Part shown: piece after piece, positions 3,231-20,229 of the stretch | Position numbering within the stretch: the stretch's first letter is position 1 | How the letters are laid out: every line of letters begins with the position of its first letter | Assembly: GCA_015066005.1 (NCBI GenBank) | Contig: SVPF01000008.1 | Location: forward strand, 1-64,000 | Direction: 5' to 3' | Source: Oscillospiraceae bacterium | Lineage (GTDB): Bacteria; Bacillota; Clostridia; Oscillospirales; Acutalibacteraceae | Length of the DNA: 64,000 nt | Position numbers and translations under genes: made by a program | Notes under the pieces: model-generated | Database searches by the model: none | Seen by the model: only the letters and a program-made list of their open reading frames with translations | Told to the model about the DNA's origin: nothing

Positions 3231-3259
3231 ATAAAAAAGCAGTCACTTGGACTGCTTTA
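3231..3259 (-). terminator. Terminator of rnpB
   Basis: AAAGCAGTC / GACTGCTTT arms immediately after the RNase P RNA 3' end, followed on the minus strand by TTTTTTAT. Confidence 0.85.
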
Positions 3260-3262
3260 AAA

Positions 3263-3593
3263 TGAGTCGGTCTGTAAGCCGAGTTCTGTCGTGGACGGTT
3301 ATCTATCTCGACACGGAATTGCTTCCGTGCTCTAGCCGCATTTCGTGGCACATCGGGCAAATGTATAGCCACACTTTGCGTTGCTCCGAATAGGGTTTAC
3401 AGGGCTTCGACGTTCCCGTGAAGCCGGTGAGCTCTTACCTCGCCTTTCCACCCTTACCGAAATAAATTTCGGCGGTATATCTCTGTTGCACTTTCCCTAA
3501 GGTCACCCTCGGCGGCCGTTAGCCGTTATTCTGCCCTGCGGGGCTCGGACTTTCCTCAGGCATTTCTGCCCGCAACCGTCTAACCGACTCGCC
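3263..3593 (-). ncRNA. rnpB: RNase P RNA, catalytic subunit
   Basis: About 331 nt. Diagnostic conserved blocks are present in order on the minus strand: GAGGAAAGTCCGAGC near the 5' end, AGGGTGACC with the following GGAAAGTGCAACAGA, then GGTAAGAGCTCACCG in the middle, and the universal 3' block with ACAGAACTCGGCTTACAGA. The 5' GGCGAGTCGG pairs with the 3' CCGACTC to form P1. The bacterial RNase P ribozyme removes 5' leaders from tRNA precursors. Promoter and terminator flank it tightly. Exact ends are estimated from the P1 pairing; the A/B subtype was not formally assigned. Confidence 0.96.
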
Positions 3594-5507: not shown

Positions 5508-5869
5508 AAAAGCACCCTCGAGGCGCACTCCGTAAGGAAGTGTGCCTCAACTAAGTTTGCCCTTGCGGGCAAGTGAAGTTATCTACAATAGTGAAGTTGT
5601 CCTGCGGACAGTGAAGTTTCGCCTACGGCGAAATGGGCAAACCAAACTTCACTGTGAACAAAGCGAGCAACTTCACTTTTGCGTTAGCAAAAACTTCACT
5701 TCACAAGCCGAAAAGAATCTGCTGTTTTTCGGCAAGTATTTACCTTTCTCAAGGTATGTAACCCACTATGACACTTTCACATCCAATGTGCAAAGTGTCA
5801 TTTGTTTTATGGGGATAAAAAACGAGAGAGACAACTTCTTTACGAAGTGTCTCTCTCACGGGTGCTTTT
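5508..5869. repeat. Structured intergenic element, copy A
   Basis: A 362-nt self-complementary element between the convergent SDR and enolase genes. The ends pair with each other: AAAAGCACCC at 5508-5517 and GGGTGCTTTT at 5860-5869. Inside the left end is a GAGGCGCACT / AGTGTGCCTC hairpin with loop CCGTAAGGA. Inside the right end is a GAGAGAGAC / GTGTCTCTCTC hairpin with loop AACTTCTTTACGAA. Between them short hairpins (for example GTCCTGCGGAC, TTTCGCCTACGGCGAAA) alternate with the unit GTGAAGTT and later its complement AACTTCAC. The block TATGTAACCCACTATGACAC at 5755-5774 is shared exactly with copy B at 18990-19297. Open frames across it are by-products of the repeats. Terminator-like at both ends. 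Confidence 0.8.
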
Positions 5870-18808: not shown

Positions 18809-18976
18809 ATGTTAAACAATTTATATATTGCTAAAAGTATTTTCAGCACATTTAACCCCATGGCTTTTGTTGACAATCTTAAATATATGCTTTCAGGTAT
18901 GATTGCAATATTTATCGTTATTGGTATAATAATTCTTATTACCGTTATTCTTAACAAAATTTTCAGCAAAAAATAA
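18809..18976 (+). CDS. OadG-like small membrane subunit of the Na+ pump
   Basis: 55 residues: a short N-terminus, one membrane helix (about 28-48; YMLSGMIAIFIVIGIII and following) and a basic end IFSKK. GGGGG lies seven bases before the ATG. Position directly after oadB and the single-helix plan fit the gamma subunit of sodium-pumping decarboxylases (Pfam OAD_gamma), which anchors alpha to beta. It is shorter than most gamma subunits (about 80-100), which also carry a soluble tail with a zinc-binding end; that tail is missing here. Assignment rests mainly on context. Confidence 0.7.
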   Translation: MLNNLYIAKSIFSTFNPMAFVDNLKYMLSGMIAIFIVIGIIILITVILNKIFSKK

Positions 18977-18989
18977 GCTCATATAAACT

Positions 18990-19297
18990 AAACGACCACC
19001 AAAGAGGCGCACTCCGCAAGGAAGTGCGCCTCAGTTTTATTCGCCCAAGGCGAGTTTTATTGCTTCGCAGTGATATTCGGCCACCGCCGAGTGTTATTCG
19101 CTTCGCGAGTTTTGGTGCGAATAAAATATCACTAAAACTAATAGGTTTTAATATCACTTGTTTTTTCTTTGAGATAGGTATTATTTTAAAATATGTAACC
19201 CACTATGACACTTTCGAACAGAAAGTGTCAATTTTTATATAAAAAGAAAATTGGGAGAACACTTCCTTACGAAGTGTCTCCCAATCGGTGGTCGTTT
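18990..19297. repeat. Structured intergenic element, copy B
   Basis: 308 nt between convergent oadG-like and manA genes. Outer arms AAACGACCACC (18990-19000) and GGTGGTCGTTT (19287-19297) are perfectly complementary yet unrelated to the outer arms of copy A. The left inner hairpin GAGGCGCACT / AGTGCGCCTC and the block TATGTAACCCACTATGACAC (19192-19211) match copy A. The right inner hairpin uses TTGGGAGA / TCTCCCAA arms with the same CTTCCTTACGAAG-type loop. The middle contains short hairpins (TCGCCCAAGGCGA, CGGCCACCGCCG, TCGCTTCGCGA) spaced by TTTTATT or GTGATATT and the complements of these later on. It ends two bases before the manA stop. Confidence 0.8.
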
Positions 19298-19299
19298 TT

Positions 19300-20229
19300 T
19301 TAATATAAAGTTTCAATTATTTCGGCATTACCGATTACACTTGCTTCGCATTCTTCGGGAACAAAAACACTGTCACCCTTATGTACGGCAAATTCACCGT
19401 TTTGGTATTTAATTACCGCATCACCGCTTAAAATTAAAAGCGATACACCGCCGTTTTCAAAGGCTTTAGCACCTTTTAAATCTAGCTTTTTAGTGTCAAA
19501 ATATTCGCATTTGCCAAGTGCACGCTCGGTACCGTAGGGGTAAGTGCACACCTCGCCCACATTACCGTAAGGCATTTTAGGGGGCGCAGTAACGGTTACA
19601 TCCAAAGCTTTTTCAATATGCAATTCGCGGGGCTTACCGTCAGCACCAAGGCGGCCATAGTCAGACACGCGGTAGGTGGTATTTGAATTTTGCTGTATTT
19701 CGGCAATAAGTATTCCCGCACCTATTGCGTGCAGCGTGCCTGCCTCAATAAAGAAAACATCGCCCTTCTTAACAGGAACATAATTTATAACGGCATCAAG
19801 TGTGTTTTCCTTTATGCGCTGTTCAAATTCAGCCTTGCTGATTTCTTTATTAAAGCCGTACGCCAGCTTGGCACCTTCTTCACAGTCAACAATATACCAC
19901 ATTTCAGTTTTGCCGAATTCTCCCTCGTTTTCAAGGGCGTATTGGTTACTGGGGTGTACCTGCACCGAAAGTCTATCCTTAGCGTCAATAAGCTTTATAA
20001 GTATTGGAAATGTTTCATTACATCCCCAAAGCTTTAAAACATCCTGAAAGCTTTCGCCTGCGTATTCACCGTTAACCACTATATTTGTGCCGTCCTTATG
20101 GGCTGACAGCATCCAGCCCTCAGCGGCGATGGTTTTATCGGTTTCAAAGCCATAATCGGTTTTAAGGCGGGTTCCGCCCCAAATATAGTCCTTTATTACA
20201 GGCTTTAATAATAACGGATATTTGTTCAT
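19300..20229 (-). CDS. manA: Class I mannose-6-phosphate isomerase
   Basis: Zinc-dependent interconversion of mannose 6-phosphate and fructose 6-phosphate; cytoplasmic cupin. 309 residues, the usual size of the short Firmicute form. Visible: KPVIKDYIWGGTRL at the N-terminus, zinc-site segments VQVHPSNQYA and KTEMWYIVDC, and IEAGTLHAIGAGILIAEIQQNS with the catalytic region DYGR. TAAGG lies upstream. It is the last gene of the large minus-strand block, 12 bases after rhaD, suggesting that mannose may be another component of the substrate or that the gene feeds GDP-sugar synthesis. It ends at structured element B. Confidence 0.94.
   Translation of the reverse strand: MNKYPLLLKPVIKDYIWGGTRLKTDYGFETDKTIAAEGWMLSAHKDGTNIVVNGEYAGESFQDVLKLWGCNETFPILIKLIDAKDRLSVQVHPSNQYALENEGEFGKTEMWYIVDCEEGAKLAYGFNKEISKAEFEQRIKENTLDAVINYVPVKKGDVFFIEAGTLHAIGAGILIAEIQQNSNTTYRVSDYGRLGADGKPRELHIEKALDVTVTAPPKMPYGNVGEVCTYPYGTERALGKCEYFDTKKLDLKGAKAFENGGVSLLILSGDAVIKYQNGEFAVHKGDSVFVPEECEASVIGNAEIIETLY

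Follow-up and report, generated by a model that had tools for sequence, protein, structure and literature searches.

The locus at positions 18990 to 19297 raises the question of whether the perfectly paired outer arms of an intergenic repeat evolved as part of the repeat or belong to the DNA into which it was inserted. The window, meaning the whole 64,000-nucleotide stretch that was analysed, carries this copy (copy B) together with a second one (copy A), and the outer arms of the two differ. In copy B, AAACGACCACC (18990-19000) and GGTGGTCGTTT (19287-19297), as read from the sequence, are complementary at 11/11 positions, and in copy A, AAAAGCACCC (5508-5517) and GGGTGCTTTT (5860-5869) are complementary at 10/10. 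The spacer word also changes together with its complement, from GTGAAGTT in copy A to TTTTATT/GTGATATT in copy B, each followed by its own reverse complement. The first-pass annotation had reported both the differing, internally paired arms and the coupled spacer change, and these observations stand; it had read them as compensatory change, and hence as selection on structure. Judged from sequence comparison, the outer arms of copy B instead most likely represent a host terminator stem split in two, whose halves would pair because that terminator was there before the element.

Copy B is situated between a 55-aa open reading frame behind an OAD_beta gene, with its stop at 18976, and a mannose-6-phosphate-isomerase-like gene with its stop at 19300, in convergent arrangement. 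On the plus strand, the locus begins with the presumed left half of the host terminator (18990..19003), consisting of the arm AAACGACCACC and the loop bases AAA, the last two of which are the left flanking AA. It continues with the mobile element, a 279-bp copy with type I ends (19004..19282) delimited by blast match limits and end patterns, and closes with the right flanking AA, the loop bases TC and the presumed right half of the terminator, GGTGGTCGTTT and its T tract (19283..19299). Within the element, the left-end hairpin GAGGCGCACTCCGCAAGGAAGTGCGCCTC (19004..19032) is followed by an array of short hairpins with the words AGTTTTATT/AGTGATATT between them (19033..19126, from fold and alignment), closed by a long-range stem of 19035-19044 with 19117-19126. 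An internal hairpin, TGACACTTTC..GAAAGTGTCA followed by ATTTTTAT (19206..19230), is terminator-like in the plus direction, and the right-end hairpin GGGAGAACACTTCCTTACGAAGTGTCTCCC (19253..19282) has a T tract behind it on the minus strand, making it terminator-like for the convergent gene. Both end hairpins (19004-19032 and 19253-19282) are self-complementary except for a small bulge. The predicted guide is the dinucleotide TT (19251..19252), which lies at the inner foot of the right-end hairpin and complements the flanking AA at 19283-19284. No open reading frame of at least 80 aa was found inside copy B, and the region folds with a z score of -14.1 on the plus strand and -10.1 on the minus strand, with 0/100 shuffles as good on either.

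Copy A is a 336-bp element (5520..5855, plus strand) that includes an Rfam Gut-1 match at 5548-5622, preceded by the presumed left half of its host terminator with the final bases TC (5508..5519) and followed by the dinucleotide TC, then AC and the presumed right half GGGTGCTTTT (5856..5869). It lies between a short-chain dehydrogenase gene (stop 5506) and an enolase gene (stop 5933), also convergent. Both copies had been described as filling the gap between convergent genes; the convergent setting holds for A and B, but A does not fill its gap, ending about 60 bases before the enolase gene. Elsewhere in the window, Rfam matches on the minus strand comprise a pemK RNA (1288-1351, 69.6 bits) and an RNase P class A RNA (3259-3591, 272.8 bits).

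The picture of a two-copy repeat gives way to that of a family of short repeats present in many gut Clostridia, copy B being one of about 20 separate copies in the source genome after merging of 27 blast matches, several per copy. Matches to B at E <= 0.001, weak ones counted, occur in 43/70 genomes of the genus. The left-end pattern identifies 77 stretches in named genome records, with titles mostly of Clostridia or Oscillospiraceae bacterium and with a ruminant as host animal where a title names one; a search of viral contigs for phage carriage of the same pattern gave 0 matches. From 89 left ends, inspection by eye removed 18, of which 12 lay behind an intact terminator and 6 were unclear, and 38 of 71 copies were left out because the right end was not recognised. 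Among the named loci, 50/77 were left out, 47 because the pattern matched no right end and 3 because they were cut or unmatched; later inspection revealed arms in many of these loci, at about +300 to +380. The right-end patterns were written after the copies had been viewed, but they end before the dinucleotide under test. The merged set of 59 copies combines the overlapping genus and named sets, with identical-flank copies counted once.

By a rough ORF rule, 32/45 scored copies lie between convergent gene ends, a raw count rather than a measure of enrichment; such a location would follow from the terminator being the target. On the minus strand, a T tract follows the right-end hairpin in all type I copies (55/55); 41/55 also have a plus-strand hairpin with a T run, and 6/11 of the type III/IV right ends shown have, by eye, an additional hairpin flanked by A and T runs. 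Several other arrangements were observed. By eye, twelve of the 89 copies (L077, L158, L161, L162, L167, L171, L173, L175, L177, L179, L181 and L194) start directly behind an intact terminator-like hairpin rather than within a terminator loop, in several cases downstream of a gene for a tRNA or 5S RNA, with the left-end hairpin seemingly replaced by that terminator. In L061, L069, L318 and L320 (L318 being probably the same copy as L069), a second intact hairpin past the right arm, roughly 470-1450 bp from the left end, has the stem of the split terminator, possibly a target duplication. In L025, at about 1491-1539, a perfect 22-bp terminator stem is topped by a lone family end-hairpin (AGTTAACAAAGAGGCGCACTTC..GAAGTGCGCCTCTTTGTTAACT), possibly a solo end.

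The boundary of the repeat separates the arms from the element. Most blast matches to B are limited by the inner hairpins, a few extending some bases into the A-/T-rich flank, and the left arm of B is unlike the arms of 12/12 other copies compared. Copy C33a is 92% identical to B in the body and 25% in the arms, and copy C4 is 92% identical in the body, 58% in the A-rich left arm and 25% in the right arm. C33a is inserted in the terminator-like hairpin of another repeat, the intact form of which is present in L015. Among 11 sites other than B that were examined, the same stem was found empty at 2 and partly matching at 1, the remaining 8 having diverged sequence, being filled in another species too (one) or matching no other genome. 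At the first site (G030a), the stem halves surround a 329-bp element in G030, and G011 is empty, with the intact terminator AAAAAGCACCGATTAAATCGGTGCTTTTT and a left flank 95% identical over 300 nt; G035 is also empty, and G020 carries a truncated element. At the second, G020 is filled and G035 is empty with the same stem AAAGAACCTGCTAAATTTAGCAGGTTCTTTT, and at the third, where G020 was compared with G023, the stem matches only in part. No empty counterpart of copy B was found among 29 isomerase loci elsewhere, one of which was misread and another truncated by the end of its contig, and the case for B therefore rests on its sister copies; some of these loci have simple terminators, and none has the element or the stem of B.

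Joining of the flanks restores terminators. The joined site of copy B reads CGACCACCAAATCGGTGGTCG followed by a T tract, with a folding energy of -18.1 kcal/mol and a 5-nt loop. Across the 59 copies, joined flanks average -16.6 kcal/mol versus -6.2 for cross-joined flanks, and 48/59 reach -12 or lower versus 17/400 cross-joined. The junction falls inside the hairpin loop in 55/59 joined flanks, with loops mostly of 4-5 nt, but this is by itself a weak discriminator, cross-joined flanks giving 534/1000, and the energies are the stronger test. The joined host sites have the GC stem, short loop and T tract of intrinsic terminators. Among 71 arms, the copy's own arm is uniquely the best downstream complement in 24/71, with about 1 expected, under a simple ungapped score whose misses include contig ends and low-scoring arms visible by eye; copy A (9/70 other arms score as high) and C4 (27/70) are among these misses. 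Insertion of the family into terminator loops is regarded as nearly certain.

On the annotation's interpretation, the repeat would be a conserved RNA structure or a bidirectional terminator, with an outer stem changing in a compensatory manner under structural selection. The strong folding of both strands, the compensatory change in the body and the pairing of the outer stem in most copies with both ends agree with such a structure, but the same outer stem occurs without the element at orthologous sites, arm likeness is independent of body likeness, and identical dinucleotides flank most copies, leaving this explanation scarcely credible. Compensatory evolution as the origin of the outer arms was rejected because sister copies have empty sites and because a body almost identical to that of B carries unrelated arms. 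The annotation's reading holds for the body, as the aligned arrays indicate, and fails for the outer arms on the evidence of the family.

In 70 aligned arrays (16 of 86 arrays, outside the pattern, were left out), 98.2% of cells are paired under the consensus structure, the shuffle maximum being 89.5%, and 114 cells are doubly changed, the shuffle maximum being 42; these cells count related sequences rather than events, and the alignment tested is also the one that yielded the structure. With partners slid by 1 to 3 columns, 33 to 46% are paired, a control that favours any structure taken from the same alignment, as was done here. Within those limits, compensatory change in the element body, covering the array hairpins and the long-range spacer stem, is real. 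The array also connects the family with a known RNA family, Gut-1 RNA (RF01706), with copy A scoring 54.1 bits against a gathering cut-off of 50 and copy B scoring 39.8 bits, below that cut-off (match 19032-19102). The gathering score was exceeded in the array of copy A and in 4/16 other loci scanned. In the portion of the source available (PMC2864571), Gut-1 RNA is listed in 2010 as a likely noncoding RNA, from human gut only and without a function, whereas the array studied here belongs to a mobile element. A search of the open-licence literature under the name 'Gut-1 RNA' found no paper.

The sequences directly flanking the element indicate how it may choose its site. The flanking dinucleotides are equal on both sides in 46/59 copies (permuted mean 12.2, maximum 24 in 20,000), comprising TA 14, AA 11, TT 11, TC 9 and AC 1, and 13/59 copies are without equal dinucleotides; copy B has AA and copy A has TC. 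Equality holds in 23/33 copies of the genus set (cross expectation 0.24) and in 23/27 of the named set (cross expectation 0.20), which overlaps slightly with the former. Rather than belonging to the element, the right dinucleotide could have arisen by target duplication. The annotation had itself named free gain with target duplication as the outcome contrary to its reading, and the dinucleotides flanking these 46 copies come close to that outcome.

In type I copies, the two bases at the right-end hairpin's inner foot complement the right flanking dinucleotide in 41/49 (permuted mean 9.4, maximum 21), the rule being broken in 8/49; 6 of 55 type I copies were left out of this test, their inner arm not being locatable. 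The complementarity is confined to offset 0, with 0-11 at the other offsets between -4 and +4. The fraction of copies that match is 0.90 at foot position 1 (permuted mean 0.50, maximum 0.71) and 0.92 at position 2 (permuted mean 0.36, maximum 0.61). Positions 3 and 4, at 0.41 and 0.45, are slightly above their permuted means of 0.22 and 0.30 but, like positions 5 to 8, lie inside the permuted maxima. By foot and target, TT occurs at AA in 11/13, GA at TC in 10/11, TA at TA in 9/11 and AA at TT in 6/9. A corresponding left-end guide was not found in the first 70 nt, where the best fixed offset gave 15/49. The same foot-to-dinucleotide pairing recurs across different terminators. The simplest reading is that specificity resides in the element, whose guide of two bases likely selects the insertion dinucleotide. 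Copy B is, in our judgement, probably a MITE-like element in a terminator loop, with arms of host DNA and a two-base guide that likely picks the dinucleotide of insertion.

An ordinary DDE cut-and-paste MITE with a 2-bp target duplication might leave similar traces, the foot/flank match then arising later, as selection favoured a longer terminator stem. This origin is compatible with the imperfect inverted ends, the equal dinucleotides on either side and the lack of a frame of 80 aa or more in copy B; a longer minus-strand hairpin might improve termination, and the slight rise at foot positions 3 and 4, within the permuted maxima, points in the same direction. However, the strong match is limited to two positions, and one inner dinucleotide recurs at one flank over many separate insertions, as TT does at AA. 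A strict TA target duplication was not found, TA accounting for 14/46 matching dinucleotides. IS630 DDE_3 (PF13358), the only DDE family searched, is present in 0/70 genomes and in 3/14 controls, and on the former result an IS630 transposase was rejected as the mover. A DDE origin is considered unlikely.

The complementarity between foot and flank, resembling that of IS200/IS605 guides, suggests guided, perhaps single-strand, insertion. Under this proposal, a Y1 (HUH) transposase supplied in trans would mobilise the element in single-stranded form, with the hairpin ends as its binding sites, and the foot dinucleotide would select both the cleavage and the target dinucleotide, as an IS200/IS605 guide does. 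A terminator extruded on single-stranded DNA would present its loop as the target. Insertion would do little harm, given compact folding within the split stem and terminator-like hairpins facing both ways; in the fold of the B region, the split stem can still pair around the compact insert. Guided single-strand transposition is taken as the most likely route, with a chance that we place a little short of even.

The genomes provide candidates for the enzyme. Y1 genes are present in 49/70 genomes and were not found in G044, an element-bearing genome that is 98% complete; no transposase was recognised by eye in 17 translated copies. RAYT-like matches, weak ones counted, occur in 46/70 genomes, G000 among them, and one RAYT-like protein scores 74.1 bits on the NCBIfam RAYT model, the cut-off of which is 80. 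No RAYT-like match was found in element-rich G015 (99% complete, 15 matches to B) or in G044 (5 matches), and on these searches RAYT was set aside as a general mobiliser. In the RAYT-like proteins L338-L349, variable stretches surround VGAIHESPE, RAIRESPLQ or GQSGTPVPT, as if short repeats had inserted in frame.

An integrase-family gene near one copy slightly lowers the probability assigned to the single-strand step and the overall confidence. Behind the array of G044c, one of the 17 translated copies, at about 0.5 kb and at the contig end, an open reading frame (L164, 794-1264, minus strand) matches Phage_integrase (PF00589, 7.2e-15), and after the G046 copy G046a, also at a contig end, a frame without a Pfam match is integrase-like by eye (L137, 713-1162, plus strand). 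These frames, through which alone tyrosine recombinases were examined, raise the idea that a tyrosine recombinase of larger, incompletely assembled members moves the elements. The right arm of G044c was looked for and not found, nor was one located for G046a, and the gene may therefore be part of a different element. The common core left by tyrosine recombinases is usually longer than two bases, and their involvement is held to be very improbable.

Larger relatives occupy similar positions. Elements carrying a 23S_rRNA_IVP domain (PF05635, 2.2e-27) lie within a split terminator stem in G007 (arm 15/15 bases at +1733) and in a split terminator in G015 (arm at +1307), and an element in a split terminator in G053 carries a Cation_efflux gene and a TetR regulator (arm 17/17 at +2154). 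PF05635 is found in 57/70 genomes and 0/14 controls. The IVP carriers sharing the hairpin array have a right-end type unlike that of B in both cases with a located right end. By eye, arrays of a word and its reverse complement precede, and sometimes follow, 23S_rRNA_IVP in nearly all 30 IVP loci (L102-L131, of which L107 and L129 were misread), and several of these loci lie directly behind tRNA or 5S terminators. The array words vary by element and include TGATGT, GTGATGT, GTGAAAT, TGAAG, GCTAAAT, TAATTCGGAATGCG and AATGAATA, among others. A methyltransferase gene follows IVP in L132 (10117-10770, minus strand, PF13847) and, by eye, in L079 and L125; its presence in IVP elements with two different array words suggests cargo exchange.

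The 23S rRNA intervening sequences are inserted in a hairpin loop with the stem still able to pair, and PF05635 in the longer relatives of B is a point of likeness to them. Unlike them, the family has a terminator as target, and B lies between protein genes and carries no IVP gene. An RNA-mediated route tied to IVP, as in the rRNA intervening sequences, would make copy B an IVP-less relative. The shared array, the split-stem position of the IVP members in G007 and G015 and the distribution of PF05635 between the genomes and the controls speak for such a route, but the right ends of two IVP carriers are of another type than those of B, the split-stem element with cation-efflux and TetR genes has no IVP seen in it, and the flanking dinucleotide repeat fits DNA cleavage better. 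This route is judged improbable.

Guided transposition of DNA, the preferred reading, finds its nearest parallels among known hairpin-ended elements. The available portion of PMC8266576 describes cleavage sites in IS200/IS605 elements as set by guides 5' to each palindrome and retargetable by guide change, and TnpAREP as cutting at a CT dinucleotide beside a hairpin. As in IS200/IS605 (IS608, ISDra2), a palindromic hairpin is found at each end of the family, with a guide 5' to the right hairpin that is complementary to the right boundary site in those 41 of 49 copies, a likeness drawn from that portion of the source. Conversely, the guide of the family has 2 nt instead of a tetranucleotide, the left guide present in IS200/IS605 was not found here, B has no tnpA inside it, and the family targets a terminator loop with the same dinucleotide on both sides. 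The REP/BIME/REPIN palindromes mobilised by RAYT (TnpAREP) are likewise non-autonomous and intergenic, and the dinucleotide cleavage of TnpAREP, again from the portion available, adjoins a hairpin. In contrast, GTAG is not conserved, the foot and first stem base reading GTAG in 9/49, the sequences before the right hairpin include AATT, CCGA, AGTA and others, and the dinucleotide is mostly TA/AA/TT/TC rather than CT. Other mobile DNA is also directed at palindromic or terminator hairpins, IS1397-type insertions targeting REP palindromes and group IIC introns targeting terminators; these, unlike the family, have their own transposase or reverse transcriptase, and group IIC introns are inserted beside the hairpin, not in its loop. 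Searches of the open-licence literature for terminator-targeting elements gave no match to this family.

The broadest reading, possible though rather doubtful, is that the family represents a new class of guided mobile elements homing to terminator loops, in which a two-base guide at the right foot reads the target and the element substitutes for the terminator it splits, so that insertion is almost free. Under this reading, the same architecture occurs with cargo and with IVP, and rRNA intervening sequences and 'Gut-1 RNA' would be faces of one hairpin-loop-targeting system. The analysis gives an identity to an orphan Rfam family, Gut-1 RNA, and the repeat family offers a natural test case for guide-directed transposition with a guide of two bases. 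The results also call for caution, as an outer stem that seems compensatory in a repeated element can derive from the target. They point to terminator loops, where the split stem can still pair, as a safe harbour for mobile DNA, and if the cargo-carrying relatives move likewise, gut Clostridia would have a route of gene exchange that has been little noticed.
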